A stretch of DNA of 64,000 nucleotides from Sphingomonadaceae bacterium OTU29LAMAA1 (GCA_024072375.1 CP099617.1:2797001-2861000), one strand, 5' to 3'; numbered from the stretch's first letter, positions 1 through 6,423 are shown. Program-made: numbers and translations. The notes: a model not told the origin generated them from the sequence alone.

Positions 1-359
1 TGCACGTCGATCTCGACAGTTTTGCGATGGTCGACGGCAGCTACACCGCGGCGGCGGACCTGTATCTGGGCGATACGTCGAGCCAGGTCGTCGAATTCCT
101 GATGCGGCCGCGACCGTGTGTGTTCCTCGATCCCGCCGCCGTCGCGTGGCAGGGGGATCCGAGCTATGCGATGTGGGCGGCCGGTGAGGTGGTGACCACG
201 ATCGACGCCATGATGCCGGCGCTGGATCGCGCGACGGCGCGGCATTCCGGCTTCGTTGCGGCGCAGGAGGCGTTCGCGACGACGTCGCTGGGCGACAGCG
301 ACGGCGTGGCACCGGACCGGGCGGCGGCGGCGATCCTGCGGCTGCTCGCGACCAGTTGA
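1..359 (+). CDS. C-terminal end of a CDP-glycerol glycerophosphotransferase/epimerase-like GT-B protein (partial)
   Basis: The reading frame is open from the left edge and ends at 357-359, leaving about 118 residues. The segment GDTSSQVVEFLMRPRPCVFL followed by an aromatic W and a YxxW motif resembles the nucleotide-binding C-terminal half of CDP-glycerol:polyglycerophosphate glycerophosphotransferases and UDP-GlcNAc 2-epimerase-type GT-B enzymes. Such enzymes transfer glycerol-phosphate or sugar units to envelope acceptors in the cytoplasm. It is followed immediately by a CDP-alcohol phosphatidyltransferase, which fits a role in building a polar lipid or polymer. The N-terminal part is outside the window, so substrate and length cannot be judged. 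Confidence 0.6.
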   Translation, partial: HVDLDSFAMVDGSYTAAADLYLGDTSSQVVEFLMRPRPCVFLDPAAVAWQGDPSYAMWAAGEVVTTIDAMMPALDRATARHSGFVAAQEAFATTSLGDSDGVAPDRAAAAILRLLATS

Positions 360-406
360 ACGCTGGCGACTATCCCGATCGCATCGGCGACGCTATCGGG
401 CCGGAC

Positions 407-1537
407 ATGACCGTGCCCGTTCCCGCCCCGCGCCCGATCGTGATCGCGATCGGAGACAATCCGACGCCGATCTGGGGGATGACCGTAGCGGAACGGCTGC
501 GGCGGCTGGCAGCGGCGCGCAAATTGCCGCTGGCGGGCGATGCCGATGCGGCGGGGGCGCTGCTCGCCAATCTCGCGTTCGCGTTCGACCCTGCGTGGGT
601 GCCGTACCTCGTCGCGCGACCGGGCACGGTAGTGACGCGGGGCGGCGTGCCCGTACTTGCGCACATCCTCGACGCCGCCGATCGCGCACGCGTCGCCGCG
701 GCGATGGAGGCGAACGGGCCGCTGGAGCCGGGCACGCTGACGGTGATCCCGGCAGAGGCGGAGGACGGCATCTTCAACGAGGCGCTGCGAAAGCGGGAGC
801 GTCCGTTTGCGGAGCGGCTGGAACCTGCCAGCGTGCCGGCGATCGAACGCGCCAGCTACACCGGCGCGTATAAGGGCGTCACCGATCTGCTGACCAAATA
901 TCTGTGGCCGGAATGGGCGTTGTGGATCACGCGGCTGTGCGCGCGGGCCGGCATCTCACCCAATCAGGTCACGGCGCTGGGTTCGGTGCTGTGCATCGTC
1001 GCGACCGTGGCGTTCTGGTACGGCTGGTTCTGGAGCGGGCTGGCGGTCGGGCTGCTGTTCATGGTCCTCGACACCGTCGACGGAAAGCTGGCGCGGTGCA
1101 CGATCACCTCGTCCGCGCTCGGCAATGCCTGGGATCATGGCGTTGACCTGATCCACCCGCCGTTCTGGTGGTGGGCATGGGCGACGGGATGTGCCGCCTA
1201 TGGCAGGCCGCTCGATCACGACATCTTCGTCGCGGTGATCGCCGCGATGCTGTTCGGCTATGTCGCGCAGCGCTTGATCGAGGGCGCTTTCATCGCGCGG
1301 TTCGCAATGCACATCCACGTGTGGGAGCGGTTCGACAGCCGGTTCCGCCTGATCACCGCGCGCCGCAACCCGAACATGGTGCTGCTGTTCGCCTTGCTGC
1401 TGGTCGGTCGCCCCGACTGGGGCATCGTCGCGGTGGCGATGTGGACGATGCTGTCGCTCCTCGTCCACCTGGTTCGCCTGTTCCAAGCGATGGCCGTCGC
1501 CAGGCGGGGGCAGAGGATCGTCAGCTGGCTGGCATGA
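407..1537 (+). CDS. CDP-alcohol phosphatidyltransferase with an N-terminal extension
   Basis: This 376-residue protein has the full CDP-alcohol phosphotransferase signature DGx2ARx8Gx3Dx3D: DGKLAR at about residues 225-230, then G and two Asp residues ending at about 247. Several hydrophobic helices follow. The family transfers a phospho-alcohol from a CDP-activated donor to a second alcohol in the inner membrane. The first ~150 residues are soluble and contain short stretches (WGMTVAERLRR, GVPVLAHILD) that recall a worn NTP-transferase domain, as in IPCT/DIPPS-type fusions; this is a weak inference. ATG at 407 is preferred over a TTG at 356 that overlaps the upstream stop. It overlaps the downstream flippase by ATGA. 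Confidence 0.85.
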   Translation: MTVPVPAPRPIVIAIGDNPTPIWGMTVAERLRRLAAARKLPLAGDADAAGALLANLAFAFDPAWVPYLVARPGTVVTRGGVPVLAHILDAADRARVAAAMEANGPLEPGTLTVIPAEAEDGIFNEALRKRERPFAERLEPASVPAIERASYTGAYKGVTDLLTKYLWPEWALWITRLCARAGISPNQVTALGSVLCIVATVAFWYGWFWSGLAVGLLFMVLDTVDGKLARCTITSSALGNAWDHGVDLIHPPFWWWAWATGCAAYGRPLDHDIFVAVIAAMLFGYVAQRLIEGAFIARFAMHIHVWERFDSRFRLITARRNPNMVLLFALLLVGRPDWGIVAVAMWTMLSLLVHLVRLFQAMAVARRGQRIVSWLA

Positions 1538-2892
1538 GTCCCGACGCCACGAAGACCGGCCTGTTCCAGGGCGGTCCGATGCGCGCCATCGCGCGGAACC
1601 TGGGCTGGATGCTCGCCAGCCGCGGCGTGCTCGCCGTACTGAGCCTCGTCTATCTCGCGATCGTCACGCGAACGCTGGGGGTCAACGGCTTCGGCCGGTT
1701 CGCGCTGATCACCGGTGCGTCACAGGCGCTCGCCACCGTGGTCGGGTTCCAGACGTGGCAGATCATCGTCCGCTACGGCACGCAGCATCTGGGCGCTGCC
1801 GATCGCGATCCCGGCCAGAAGGACAGCGATGCCTTGCGGCTGGCGCGGCTGTTCAAGGCGTGCGGATTGCTCGATCTGGCGAGCGCGGTGGTCGGCGTGA
1901 TCCTGGCGGCGATCATCATCCGGACGTGGGGCGAGGCGCTGGGGGTCCGGCCCGTCCACGCGCGTGCGACCATGCTGTTCACCCTGGCACAACTGCTGTC
2001 GATCCGGTCGACTCCGCTGGGCATTCTGCGCCTGCGCGACCGGTTCTCGTTCGCGGCGGCGGCGGACAGCGTCACCCCGGTGATGCGGCTGGTGGGCGCG
2101 GTCGGGGCGGCGGTGTTCCTGCCCAGCGTCACCGGTTTCCTGATCGCCTGGGGCCTTGCCGAGGTGCTGACCGCCGCCGCATACTGGGCGGCGCTCGCCC
2201 GTACCGGTGACCTCAAGCTGCTGTTCGCCCGCGGCATCGGCGTGCGCGACGTGGTGGTCGATCATCCGGGTATCGTCCGCTTCTCGCTCGCCACCAACGC
2301 CAGCTCTTCGCTCGGTCTGTCGAGCAAGCAGATCCCGCTGCTGCTGGTCGGCGGCACCGTCGGCACCGCGTCGGCGGGCGCGTTCCGGCTGGCGCTGCAA
2401 CTGGCGCAGGCGCTGACCAAGGTGTCGCAATTGCTGGCCCGCGCGGCCTTTCCGGAGATCGTTCGTGCCGTCGCCGCCGGCGGGCTGGCACGGGTGCGGC
2501 AGATGATCATGCGATCGTTCCTGATGGCTTCGGTCGTCGCGGCATTCGCCTTCCTGATCGTCGTGCTGTTCGGACATCCGGTGCTGACGTTGATGGGGGG
2601 CAAGGAATTCGGCCGCGCCTATCCGATCCTGTTGTGGCTGGCCGCCGCCGGATGCGTCGATCTGGTCACCGTCGGGTTCGAGCCCTTGCTGCTCGCCGCC
2701 AACCGGATCGGCGCGACGTTCATCGCCCGACTGGTGGGGATCGTCGTACTGTTCGGCGTCAGCTTCTGGCTCAGCCCGTCGCTGGGCGTCATCGGCATCG
2801 GTGTCGCCGTGCTGGCCAACGCGTTGATCGTCGCGGTCATGCTCGGGGTCGCCACGCGCGCATTGCTCACGCGGTCTGCCGCGGCCGCCTGA
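1534..2892 (+). CDS. Polysaccharide/lipid flippase of the MOP superfamily
   Basis: This 452-residue protein is built almost entirely of hydrophobic segments (roughly 12 or more). It begins with the arrangement typical of oligosaccharide flippases: a short cytoplasmic leader, then GWMLASRGVLAVLSLVYLAI and RTLGVNGFGRFAL. Members (Wzx, MurJ-like, PST) move lipid-linked glycans or other amphiphiles across the inner membrane. Translation is probably coupled to the upstream CDP-alcohol transferase through the ATGA overlap. Its place among lipid head-group enzymes suggests that it flips their product. The cargo cannot be deduced from sequence. Confidence 0.82.
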   Translation: MSPDATKTGLFQGGPMRAIARNLGWMLASRGVLAVLSLVYLAIVTRTLGVNGFGRFALITGASQALATVVGFQTWQIIVRYGTQHLGAADRDPGQKDSDALRLARLFKACGLLDLASAVVGVILAAIIIRTWGEALGVRPVHARATMLFTLAQLLSIRSTPLGILRLRDRFSFAAAADSVTPVMRLVGAVGAAVFLPSVTGFLIAWGLAEVLTAAAYWAALARTGDLKLLFARGIGVRDVVVDHPGIVRFSLATNASSSLGLSSKQIPLLLVGGTVGTASAGAFRLALQLAQALTKVSQLLARAAFPEIVRAVAAGGLARVRQMIMRSFLMASVVAAFAFLIVVLFGHPVLTLMGGKEFGRAYPILLWLAAAGCVDLVTVGFEPLLLAANRIGATFIARLVGIVVLFGVSFWLSPSLGVIGIGVAVLANALIVAVMLGVATRALLTRSAAAA

Positions 2893-3018
2893 CCTTCGAC
2901 GAAGCGCGCATTTCGGCGAAATCATACTAAAATGCGTCAATTTTCTTGCTGGGGCCGTAATCCTGCCCATATTCTCGCCTGTGACAGTTCGGTGAAGGAC
3001 TTGTGACGGAGGGCGGTT

Positions 3019-4071
3019 GTGGCCACACGGATAGATGGGCGGCCCTCCGCCGGACAGACCCTGCTCGGTGCGGCGGGCGAAGTCCTGTTTCGCCAGACCG
3101 GCGCACATGCTGACGGTCGCCTGCCGCGGGTCGCATTGCCGGCTGCGCTGGCGCCGGCATCGTCTCTCGTAGGCGTGATTGCCAACGCTCGCAGCCACCG
3201 CAATCAGAAGACCGGGGTGCGGCTGGATCACTGGCCGGACGTGCTTTACGCTGCGCCGGAGACGTTCGACGCGCTGGAGGACACGCTGCGCGACTATGCC
3301 GCGCGCCAGATCGGCCTGCTGGTCGTCAATGGCGGTGACGGAACGTTGCGCGACGTGATGACCGCGGCGGCACGGGTGTTCGACCGGTTGCCGCCGATGG
3401 CGATCATCCCGTCGGGCAAGACCAACGCGCTGGCACTCGACCTCGGTATTCCGGACGTGTGGACGGTACGCGATGCGATCGCCGCGGCACAGGCCGGGCG
3501 GTTCGTCCAGCGTTCCCCGGTCGAGGTGCTGCGCAAAGGCAGCGACCTGCCCGATGCACGCGGATTCCTGCTGGGCATGGGCGGCTTCGTGCGTGCGACC
3601 GAACTGGCGCAGAGCACGCACCGTGCCGGCGCGTTCAACGGTATCGCGGTGGCGCTGTCGCTCGGCTGGAGCATCGCCCAGACGCTGTTCGGCGGCCCCG
3701 GCAATCCCTGGCGCCGGGGGACGACGATGCATATGCAGGTTGACGATCAGGCGCCGGCGACGCGCCGATTGTACCTGATGCTCGCATCGACGCTCGAGCG
3801 GATGCCGGTCGGACTGAAACCGTTCGGTCGCCAGCGCGCAGGCCTCAAGATGCTGACTGTCGAGGCCCCGCCGAAGCATCTGCTGCGCATGCTGAAGCCG
3901 ATCCTGACCGGAACCGACGGCGGTGCCGCAACAGCGGACGATTTCACTCGAAGCGATCCGCGTATCGTCCATGTCCGGTCGGACGAGGGCTTCATTCTCG
4001 ACGGCGAACATTATGCCGGTGGCGATCTGACGATCCGGGCGGGAGAGCCAATTCGGTTCGCCGCCCCGTGA
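3019..4071 (+). CDS. Diacylglycerol-kinase-family lipid kinase
   Basis: This 350-residue protein carries the DAGK catalytic-domain hallmarks: GGDGT at residues 105-109 and the PSGKTN loop at 131-136, as in DgkB, YegS and sphingosine/ceramide kinases. The reaction is ATP-dependent phosphorylation of a lipid hydroxyl. A bacterial ceramide kinase of this family (CpgB of Caulobacter) is known, so in a sphingolipid-making organism ceramide is as plausible a substrate as diacylglycerol. It starts with GTG at 3019, about 125 bp after the flippase, and its stop overlaps the next gene as GTGA. The substrate is not decided by the sequence. Confidence 0.82.
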   Translation: MATRIDGRPSAGQTLLGAAGEVLFRQTGAHADGRLPRVALPAALAPASSLVGVIANARSHRNQKTGVRLDHWPDVLYAAPETFDALEDTLRDYAARQIGLLVVNGGDGTLRDVMTAAARVFDRLPPMAIIPSGKTNALALDLGIPDVWTVRDAIAAAQAGRFVQRSPVEVLRKGSDLPDARGFLLGMGGFVRATELAQSTHRAGAFNGIAVALSLGWSIAQTLFGGPGNPWRRGTTMHMQVDDQAPATRRLYLMLASTLERMPVGLKPFGRQRAGLKMLTVEAPPKHLLRMLKPILTGTDGGAATADDFTRSDPRIVHVRSDEGFILDGEHYAGGDLTIRAGEPIRFAAP

Positions 4072-5006
4072 GTTCAGGTGTGGATCGGGCGGCGGGACAC
4101 ACCTTGTTGTCGTTCGTCGCAGATGAACTGGATGTCGCGGTCGCCCCGCCGGTTTCGGCTGCGGCGCGCGATCTGGTACGGCGACTCAATGGCGTGGCGG
4201 TGCTGTTCTACGGATCGGTACTGCGGACCGGCGATCTGGATGGTGTCCTCGATTTCTATGTCCTGACGCCGCCGCCGCGGGGCTTCGGCGTGCGGGCCTT
4301 GGCGACGCGGGCGCTCTGGCCCGACGTCAGCTTCCACGAGCTTCCGGTCGGTGGTCGTATGATCCGGGCCAAGGTGGCGACGATGCCGCTCGATACATTC
4401 TGCCGCGCCGCCGGGGGGCGAACGATCGACACGACGGTCTGGACGCGGTTTGCGCAGCCGGCCGGGCTGGTGTGGAGCGCCGATCCGGTGACCGGTGCGC
4501 GGGTGGTTCGCGCGGTTGCGCATGCCGCGGCGACAGCGGCGCGTTTTGCCGCGGTGCTGGGTCCGCAAAGCGGCCGCCCCGGCGATTTCTGGACCGCGCT
4601 GTTCCGCCAGACCTATTCCGCCGAACTGCGCGTCGAGGCGCCGGGGCGAGAGCAGCAGATTCTCGCCTTCGATCCCGACCGATTCGATACCCTGTTGCCG
4701 CTGGCGTGGCAGGGCGCAGGGATCGGGTACGAACGCCGCGGCGACGCCTATCGCCCGCTAGTGACCGAGCGGGACAGCCGCCAGACGCTTGCAGCCTGGT
4801 GGTTGCGCCAGCGGCTCGGCAAATGGCTCAACGTCGCACGGCTGATCAAGGCGGCCTTCACGTTCGACGGTGCCGCCCGTTACGGCCTGTGGAAGTTGCA
4901 GCGTCACACCGGCATCGACCTGCCGCTGACGCCGTGGCGCGAACGCCATCCGATTCTGGCGGCGCCGGGCGTGATGTGGCGCGTATGGCACGTGCGTCAG
5001 GCATGA
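4068..5006 (+). CDS. GS/DxD nucleotidyltransferase-fold protein, possibly Tam41-like
   Basis: This 312-residue protein has no clear named family by eye. Residues 46-64 read LFYGS, then DLD and a further Asp four residues on (LDFYV). That is the GS...DxD pattern of the polymerase-beta nucleotidyltransferase fold. The spacing recalls Tam41, the mitochondrial CDP-diacylglycerol synthase (YGSGVF followed by an IDF motif). If correct, it would activate a phosphatidic-acid-like lipid with CTP, matching the lipid kinase before it and the CDP-alcohol transferase upstream. It overlaps both neighbours (GTGA before, ATGA after), so it is firmly part of this operon. The Tam41 link is inference; an unrelated nucleotidyltransferase is possible. 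Confidence 0.6.
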   Translation: MSSGVDRAAGHTLLSFVADELDVAVAPPVSAAARDLVRRLNGVAVLFYGSVLRTGDLDGVLDFYVLTPPPRGFGVRALATRALWPDVSFHELPVGGRMIRAKVATMPLDTFCRAAGGRTIDTTVWTRFAQPAGLVWSADPVTGARVVRAVAHAAATAARFAAVLGPQSGRPGDFWTALFRQTYSAELRVEAPGREQQILAFDPDRFDTLLPLAWQGAGIGYERRGDAYRPLVTERDSRQTLAAWWLRQRLGKWLNVARLIKAAFTFDGAARYGLWKLQRHTGIDLPLTPWRERHPILAAPGVMWRVWHVRQA

Positions 5007-5776
5007 CCTTCAACGCACTGATACTGGCGGGATCGCGCGGCGGCGCGGATGCGGTCGCATCATATGCCGGAGTGGCGGACAAGGCCCTGATCGTGATCGA
5101 AGGCGAGACGATGCTGGCGCGGGTCGTCGCGGCGCTGCGGGCGGCGGGTGCCGACCGGATCGCCGTGTCGGCGAACGCTCCTGCGGTGCGTGCCGAGGCG
5201 ATCCGGCTGGGTGCCGAACCGCTCGATGCCGCTGCCGGCCCCAGCGCCAGCACTCGGTCGGGCTTGCGGACGCTGGGCGCGCCGCTGCTGGTCACCACGG
5301 CAGATCACGCGCTGTTGCGTGCCGCATGGGTGTGCGAGCTCCTGACCGATGCACCGGCCGACGCGGACGTCGCGGCGCTGCTGGCGCACCGCGATGTCGT
5401 CGAACGCGACGCGCCGCCGACCCGGCGTACCTATCTGCGCTTTGCCGACGGCGGCTGGTCGGGCTGCAACCTGTTCCTGTTGCGCACGCCGGCTGCCGAC
5501 GCTGCGATTGGACTGTGGATGTCGGTCGAGGCGGACCGCAAGCGGCCGTGGCGGATCGTCCGGCGTCTGGGCGTGCGCACGCTGCTACGCTATCTGGGCG
5601 GCCGGCTGACGCTGAATGCCGCATTGGCACAGCTTGGAGCGATCGCAGGCGTACGGGCGGCGGCCGTCGCGGCACGGCATGGGCTGGCTGCGGTCGATGT
5701 CGATAAGCCCGACGACCTCGACCTCGTCCGCAGGATCGTGGCGGAACCGCCGGGTCAGGCGTCCCAGTCGACCTGA
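5003..5776 (+). CDS. MobA-like NTP transferase domain protein
   Basis: This 257-residue protein opens with ALILAGSRGG, the glycine-rich nucleotide loop of GT-A NTP transferases (MobA, IspD, inositol-1-phosphate cytidylyltransferase). The signature Lys of ADKALI follows, then VTTADHALL, which supplies the metal-binding Asp. Such enzymes condense CTP, UTP or GTP with a phosphorylated small molecule. MobA itself is unlikely because no other molybdenum-cofactor gene is near. In this operon a CDP-head-group donor for the CDP-alcohol transferase is the simplest product. ATG overlaps the previous stop, and the 3' end overlaps the convergent HAD gene by 22 bp. Confidence 0.72.
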   Translation: MTFNALILAGSRGGADAVASYAGVADKALIVIEGETMLARVVAALRAAGADRIAVSANAPAVRAEAIRLGAEPLDAAAGPSASTRSGLRTLGAPLLVTTADHALLRAAWVCELLTDAPADADVAALLAHRDVVERDAPPTRRTYLRFADGGWSGCNLFLLRTPAADAAIGLWMSVEADRKRPWRIVRRLGVRTLLRYLGGRLTLNAALAQLGAIAGVRAAAVAARHGLAAVDVDKPDDLDLVRRIVAEPPGQASQST

Positions 5777-6423
5777 GGCCAGCCACGCTGTGCGGTGACG
5801 CGTCTCAGCGGGGCATGCGGATTGACCACCACGGGCTCGTCCGACCAATCGAAGGTCGGCACGTCGGAGACATGGTCGGAATAGAAGCGGACGGTCGTGG
5901 TGGCGCGGTCCAGTCCCTGCGCCGCAAACCACGCCTCGATCATCGCCAGCTTGCCCTTGCCATAGCAATTGCCGCCCTCGATCCGTGGCAGCAGGTGCCC
6001 GCGCGCGTCGACCGCGGTGCGCGTCGCGATCAGCGCATCGGCGCCGACATCGCGCGCGATCGCCTCGGCGTAGAAACCATAGGCCGCGGTGGCGATCACG
6101 ATGCGATATCCCGCCGCGCGATCCGCCGCCATCTGTCGGCGGGCCGAGGCGCGAATCTGCGCCGGTCCGAATCGCGCCATCCAGCGCGCCGCGATCGCTG
6201 CCGCGCGATCCGGTGACAGCGTGCCGAGGGCGGCGCGGTGCATCACCTGCTTCAGCCGGTCGCGATGCAGCAGCCCGACCCCCCGCAATGCCGCCGCCGC
6301 CAGCACGGCGGGCAGCAACGCCAGCCGCCACGGCGCGTGGCGGACGACGGCGTGCAGCAGAAACGGGGTCCAGGTCGGCAACCGGGTGATCGTCCGGTCG
6401 AGATCGTAGATCGCCACCCGCAT
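5755..6423 (-). CDS. HAD-superfamily (class IB) phosphatase
   Basis: This 222-residue protein begins MRVAIYDLDRTI, the HAD motif I DxDxT with nucleophile and acid/base Asp. Motif II (VIATAA), the GNCYGKGK lysine region and the SDHVSDVPTFDW motif IV follow. This is the SerB/PgpC-type class IB arrangement. PgpC dephosphorylates phosphatidylglycerophosphate, so a lipid phosphate made by the neighbouring CDP-alcohol transferase is an attractive substrate. Phosphoserine or another small phosphate is possible. A longer frame upstream exists, but the CAT at 6421-6423 places the start directly before motif I. It is convergent with the NTP-transferase gene. Confidence 0.8.
   Translation of the reverse strand: MRVAIYDLDRTITRLPTWTPFLLHAVVRHAPWRLALLPAVLAAAALRGVGLLHRDRLKQVMHRAALGTLSPDRAAAIAARWMARFGPAQIRASARRQMAADRAAGYRIVIATAAYGFYAEAIARDVGADALIATRTAVDARGHLLPRIEGGNCYGKGKLAMIEAWFAAQGLDRATTTVRFYSDHVSDVPTFDWSDEPVVVNPHAPLRRVTAQRGWPQVDWDA

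Follow-up and report, generated by a model that had tools for sequence, protein, structure and literature searches.

What does the overlapping gene cluster at positions 1 to 6,423 of a 64,000-nucleotide stretch from Sphingomonadaceae bacterium OTU29LAMAA1 (the window, G000:C2:2797001-2861000 of a complete 4.13 Mb genome; G denotes the genomes and L the loci that were compared) produce? The initial annotation proposed an unusual head-group lipid, perhaps a phosphoceramide or an inositol-type lipid. From gene content, homology, synteny, co-occurrence and predicted folds we infer that the cluster is very probably the Sphingomonas form of the Caulobacter ceramide-phosphoglycerate (CPG/CPG2) pathway, the head group and the biochemistry in this organism being predicted on the same grounds. 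The genes are as follows (window coordinates, unless a locus is named):

L010:14535-15251, upstream of the window: cpgD-like cytidylyltransferase, with an ATGA overlap with the TagF-like gene
1..359, plus strand: 3' end of a TagF-like (Glyphos_transf-like) transferase; the full gene (370 amino acids) starts upstream at L010:15248
407..1537, plus strand: CDP-alcohol phosphotransferase, CpgA (CC_1159)-like (PF01066, 3e-7), with an N-terminal extramembrane domain
1534..2892, plus strand: MOP-family flippase (Polysacc_synt PF01943, 2e-7; WZX_like)
3019..4071, plus strand: lipid kinase, CpgB (CC_1160)-like, a predicted ceramide kinase (DAGK_cat, 1e-12)
4068..5006, plus strand: nucleotidyltransferase, CpgC (CC_1161)-like, a predicted CTP:ceramide-1-phosphate cytidylyltransferase (by predicted fold)
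5003..5776, plus strand: MobA/CofC-like NTP transferase, CC_1153-like (NTP_transf_3 PF12804, 3e-15; weak F420_cofC match)
5755..6423, minus strand: HAD-IB phosphatase (TIGR01490, 1e-28, exceeding the cut-off)

The kinase, nucleotidyltransferase, CDP-alcohol transferase and MobA-like protein have homologs (25-50% protein identity) that are encoded by neighboring genes in alphaproteobacteria of many families, and this conserved synteny, the check that the initial annotation had suggested, rules out a chance neighborhood. In L092 the order is AasR, CerR, AcpR, Spt, CpgC, CpgB, CpgA, metallophosphoesterase, HIT, LptF, LptG, FAH, CerS, MobA-like and CpgD-like, and a comparable order is found in L091, L090, L086, L081, L058 and others. 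In the published accounts, Spt (CC_1162) of Caulobacter is accompanied by CC_1161, the ceramide kinase (CC_1160), CDP-alcohol-type CC_1159, phosphoesterase CC_1158, LptF2, LptG2, CerS (CC_1154), CofC-like CC_1153 and the cytidylyltransferase CC_1152/CpgD (PMC11324152, PMC12275187); the L092 order equals the CC_1165-CC_1152 order described there, with matching predicted functions and one added gene, FAH. A domain search in the L058 and L053 copies placed serine palmitoyltransferase Spt over the NCBIfam equivalog cut-off and matched AMP-binding, acyl carrier, LptF/G, metallophosphoesterase, HIT, FA_hydroxylase and GNAT domains. The CpgA homolog adjoins the CpgB homolog, and the MobA-like homolog comes after CerS, in many loci; CpgD is next to the sphingolipid-locus MobA gene in L081 and L092; the flippase homolog stands next to a TagF-like gene and AasR in L053/L054; and in three sphingomonad loci (L132, L134, L158) cpgD and cpgA occur with cpgB-cpgC, a TagF-like gene or a flippase. 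The initial annotation would have been refuted by a linkage with exopolysaccharide genes only; instead, the homologs share loci with Spt, CerS, CerR, AasR and LptF/G.

Two further features of these loci were observed. A second CDP-alcohol transferase, possibly an additional head-group step, was seen at L058:15126-16334, L060:6169-7527 and L086:9030-10334, either within the LptG/FAH/CerS part of the sphingolipid locus or adjacent to it. A fatty-acid hydroxylase (PF04116) adjoins CerS in most loci (L053, L054, L056-L060 and many others) and does not figure in the CC_1168-CC_1152 set as far as the accessible part of PMC11324152 describes it.

The distribution of the genes was analyzed in 289 alphaproteobacterial genomes (class sample) and in 299 genomes of Sphingomonadaceae (family sample); since genomes are related to one another, the co-occurrence p-values overstate independence. 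In the class sample, 41 genomes have CerS, 34 have CpgC and 33 have a strong match to the window-type kinase. CerS was present in 33 of the 34 CpgC genomes against 41/289 overall (Fisher p=1e-34), and CpgC was present in each of the 33 genomes with the kinase. CpgC was found in 236/299 family genomes, but the window's genus has it in only two of six members: the gene set is widespread in the family and missing from part of the genus. A lipid made from phosphorylated ceramide by a kinase, CTP activation, transfer and flipping, as the initial annotation had put it, thus gains support from homologs that are located in sphingolipid loci and track ceramide synthase.

The DAGK_cat domain would also suit a general diacylglycerol/YegS-type lipid kinase in a cluster for glycerophospholipid recycling, but we find this hardly credible, because the kinase falls short of every YegS/DGK equivalog cut-off, the genome has a separate and better DAGK match elsewhere, and the presence of the kinase follows ceramide synthase across genomes. 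The kinase open reading frame (ORF) has the GGDG motif (VVNGGDGT) and zero cysteines, and so is devoid of the CxxxCxxC of eukaryotic ceramide kinase; CpgB likewise has no such cysteine motif (PMC10331486). A weak third DAGK match at G000:C2:857907 was considered as CpgB and rejected, as its neighborhood is not related to sphingolipids and it is the window kinase that tracks CpgC.

For the CpgC homolog, sequence-profile searches against Pfam and PDB returned nothing useful: there was no Pfam match, and the Tam41 family was absent from the matches at E<=5 for 24 of 24 members. The fold search alone was informative. The AlphaFold2 model (predicted local distance difference test, pLDDT, 93) has a confident nucleotidyltransferase fold, and Foldseek ranked Tam41 best (6ig4/6ig2, E 5e-9 to 1e-7, prob 1.00, TM 0.49-0.60), ahead of aminoglycoside nucleotidyltransferases. 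The family named by the initial annotation therefore stands, whereas its motif does not, since Y-G-S ... D-F-Y replaces the canonical DxD; YGS, D62, K102 and other residues are invariant. Tam41, a mitochondrial CDP-diacylglycerol (CDP-DAG) synthase, shares the fold and the YGS...DF motif with the CpgC homolog, which differs from it in sequence (12-13% identity) and in the predicted lipid substrate, ceramide-1-phosphate. Olea-Ozuna et al. proposed CDP-DAG-synthase-like activation from an InterPro match (PMC11324152), and the Tam41-like predicted fold provides independent support for CTP activation of ceramide-1-phosphate. Our literature search, with subscription papers and supplements outside its range, retrieved no paper joining Tam41 to a bacterial ceramide pathway.

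The AlphaFold2 model of the CpgA homolog (376 residues, pLDDT 93) matches AF2299 and phosphatidylinositol-phosphate (PIP) synthases over about 370 columns. It shares with them (4o6n, 5d92) the whole-chain fold, including the N-terminal domain, and DxxDGxxAR...GxxxDxxxD, but is only 14-16% identical and is predicted to use another head group. These similarities bear on an alternative product, a (phospho)sphingolipid or glycerolipid of the inositol type seen in Bacteroidetes or mycobacteria, since the top curated models and folds for the CDP-alcohol transferase are PIP synthases and the IPCT-DIPPS family. Such a product is nevertheless highly improbable. All inositol equivalog cut-offs are missed widely (PIPSynth, 36 bits vs 170 needed); inositol-3-phosphate synthase is encoded at another locus, together with a cytidylyltransferase and a CDP-alcohol transferase of its own; and the cpgD homolog resembles genes in the CpgD position, with which it aligns over the full length at 31-37% identity. 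When residues were mapped by motif and spacing, not against CpgD itself, the cpgD homolog retained the equivalents of R16, K26, N110, D112, M147, K161 and S170, including four of the five glycerate-contacting residues (N110, M147, K161, S170), with Ser in place of N90 and Phe in place of W201. The cytidylyltransferase paralog from the inositol locus of the same genome lacks most of the CpgD-type residues, the glycerate contacts among them. Gene comparisons thus support the phosphoceramide lipid of the initial annotation, and do not support its inositol reading.

The separate inositol locus (inositol-3-phosphate synthase, IPCT-like cytidylyltransferase and CDP-alcohol transferase) lies at G000:C2 3865.7-3868.4 kb (L049:7721-10373, minus strand). 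The cpgD query also gave an RmlA-like match in L137; we took it for a glucose-1-phosphate thymidylyltransferase and set it aside.

All six gene families listed in the initial annotation are present in the place it gave, five as profile matches and the nucleotidyltransferase by predicted fold, but two upstream genes, cpgD-like and TagF-like, had been overlooked, the partial ORF at 1-359 being the end of the latter, as had the Caulobacter work on the corresponding pathway (PMC11324152, PMC12275187, PMC10331486). The cluster starts with the cpgD-like gene at G000:C2:2795534, about 1.5 kb before the window. Its order is kept at 72-87% identity in named Sphingomonas species, the closest named relatives at this locus; in L002 the first two genes are missing from the corresponding place.

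The TagF-like protein is below the family cut-off for PF04464 (E=4.8e-4, 19.6 bits vs the gathering threshold of 22.1) and weakly matches the TagF-like capsule polymerase Cps3D (8qoy). It has in common with TagF/CDP-glycerol glycerophosphotransferases the conserved HG, PH and GDxSSxxxE stretches, and differs from them in the predicted donor, CDP-glycerate, and acceptor, a sphingolipid. In the class sample eight of nine strong carriers of the TagF-like gene have CpgC (p=1.4e-7); in the family sample 130 of 131 carriers do, against 236/299 overall (p=2e-17), the loci often being unlinked, and the two genes lie within 12 kb (<=12 kb) of each other in 10 of 36 genomes compared, a hand-picked subset. 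In four genera with variable CpgC, no listed CpgC-negative genome has the TagF-like gene. L156 and L157 have it within the ceramide locus and L158 next to cpgA and cpgD, while in L162 cpgD and the TagF-like gene form a pair. No paper connecting ceramide, Caulobacter and a glycerophosphotransferase was retrieved by the literature search (same range as above).

The HAD phosphatase is linked to MobA-like, TagF-like or cpg genes in L001-L005 and, among divergent relatives, in L008, L125, L126, L158, L161, L166 and L167. A search of the window's own genome gave no convincing CC_1158 ortholog (best match 25% identity, E=1.7e-4), which makes it plausible that the HAD-IB phosphatase takes the place of the absent phosphoesterase. 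Both the TagF-like gene and the HAD phosphatase are apparently new to the pathway and are candidate pathway steps.

The initial annotation described the cluster as overlapping, and three such junctions hold, namely ATGA at 1534 (cpgA/flippase), GTGA at 4068 (cpgB/cpgC) and ATGA at 5003 (cpgC/MobA). However, a 126-base gap separates the flippase end at 2892 from the kinase start at 3019, and the HAD gene, on the minus strand, is convergent with the MobA-like gene, their 3' ends overlapping at 5755-5776. The gap would fit two unrelated adjacent modules, one of surface-glycan or teichoic type (cytidylyltransferase, TagF-like transferase, CDP-alcohol transferase, flippase) and one for sphingolipids (kinase, nucleotidyltransferase, MobA-like protein), as would L006 and L007, where kinase-CpgC-MobA occur without the other cluster genes, and genome G202, where TagF-like and CpgD-like genes are found in a glycan-like region. 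Against this are the direct adjacency of CpgA and CpgB, the position of CpgD beside MobA, the TagF-like genes inside the ceramide locus and the near-constant presence of CpgC in TagF-like genomes described above, and we regard two modules as improbable. A scan of positions 2800-3100 found neither a sigma-70-like promoter nor a terminator before the kinase. The cpgA-like gene has an alternative start, an in-frame TTG at 356.

Several related arrangements were seen elsewhere. A second TagF-like gene of the same genome (G000:C2:3233058-3235272; L148:8058-10272, minus strand) lies by a flippase-like match and a gene for a GINT1_N protein (PF24793, a family that takes its name from the plant glucosamine inositolphosphorylceramide transferase). 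L159 and L160 show the same TagF-like/GINT1-like pairing, and the sphingolipid locus L062 also includes a GINT1-like gene. Outside Sphingomonadaceae, the glycan-like region of L152 (G202:C143) contains TagF-like and CpgD-like genes as well as a HAD fragment, all within 8 kb.

The ceramide genes CerS, LptG, LptF, Spt, AcpR and CerR are together at G000:C2 4.006-4.015 Mb, 1.2 Mb from the cluster. The genome has a single LptF and a single LptG, adjoining CerS (L078:9908-14733); second copies were not found. A search of the complete genome for LpxC gave no match, while control matches were obtained in E. coli and Caulobacter; the Lpt pair is retained next to CerS despite the missing LpxC match. 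Such a gene content is consistent with a sphingomonad that has no lipid A and would use the Lpt pair for sphingolipid export.

Taken as the ceramide-phosphoglycerate pathway, the cluster would work as follows. CpgB would phosphorylate ceramide, and the Tam41-like CpgC would use CTP to activate the resulting ceramide-1-phosphate. CDP-alcohol chemistry would then attach a (phospho)glycerate head group; a PIP-synthase-like reaction of CDP-ceramide with phosphoglycerate, followed by a phosphatase, would fit the families and is our own proposal. CDP-glycerate supplied by the cpgD homolog may serve CpgA and/or the TagF-like transferase for adding a further phosphoglycerate, and the HAD enzyme, in place of CC_1158, may remove the terminal phosphate. 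The MOP flippase would carry the lipid across the inner membrane, and the single LptF/LptG pair would export it to the outer membrane. In Caulobacter, the activities of CpgB and CpgD and the lipid phenotypes of mutants have been shown (PMC11324152, PMC10331486, PMC12275187).

Five points weigh against this assignment. Orthology to the C. crescentus proteins rests on gene order and function match; N90 is Ser in the window's CpgD subgroup, with residues mapped by motif and spacing; the close genus-mate G012 has ceramide synthase and does not have the gene set; published surveys show LptF2/LptG2 as second copies, whereas this genome has one pair; and Caulobacter genetics assigns CpgA to the formation of CPG2 (the second addition), not CPG.

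The Caulobacter CpgA-D pathway (CC_1161-CC_1152; PMC11324152, PMC10331486, PMC12275187, PMC13228409) and the window's genome have in common, by synteny, CpgA, CpgB, CpgC, CC_1153 and CpgD, as well as a flippase and ceramide synthesis genes (Spt, CerS, CerR, AcpR). They differ in that here the head-group genes are separated from the ceramide genes, a TagF-like transferase and a HAD-IB phosphatase are added, CpgD N90 is changed to Ser, LptF/LptG form one pair, and neither a CC_1158 ortholog nor an LpxC match was found. CC_1158 is not essential in Caulobacter and is also missing in Sphingomonas wittichii, a member of the same family with scattered orthologs of most of CC_1168-CC_1152; the compact cluster, the TagF-like gene and the HAD gene are not described for it (all according to the accessible part of PMC11324152). 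We read the cluster as a known pathway in a new setting, of which two co-travelling genes, TagF-like and HAD, make a variant. Outside the cluster, its flanks, read from the sequence without domain search, appear to contain cobalamin-type genes upstream and genes for a TonB-like protein and prephenate dehydratase downstream.

Caulobacter relies partly on anionic ceramide phosphoglycerates once lipopolysaccharide (LPS) is removed, and a genome that carries the predicted pathway with no detectable LpxC offers a natural test of sphingolipids replacing LPS. A more far-reaching and rather unlikely idea is that the TagF-like enzyme, whose gene is translationally coupled to that of the CDP-glycerate synthase homolog, adds phosphoglycerate to the ceramide head group repeatedly, giving a short sphingolipid-anchored, teichoic-acid-like polyanion that replaces LPS; if true, a Gram-negative bacterium naturally free of lipid A would carry this polyanion in its outer membrane. 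The Tam41-like CpgC, the TagF-like transferase and the HAD phosphatase are specific, testable candidates for ceramide-1-phosphate activation, glycerate joining and phosphate removal, respectively.

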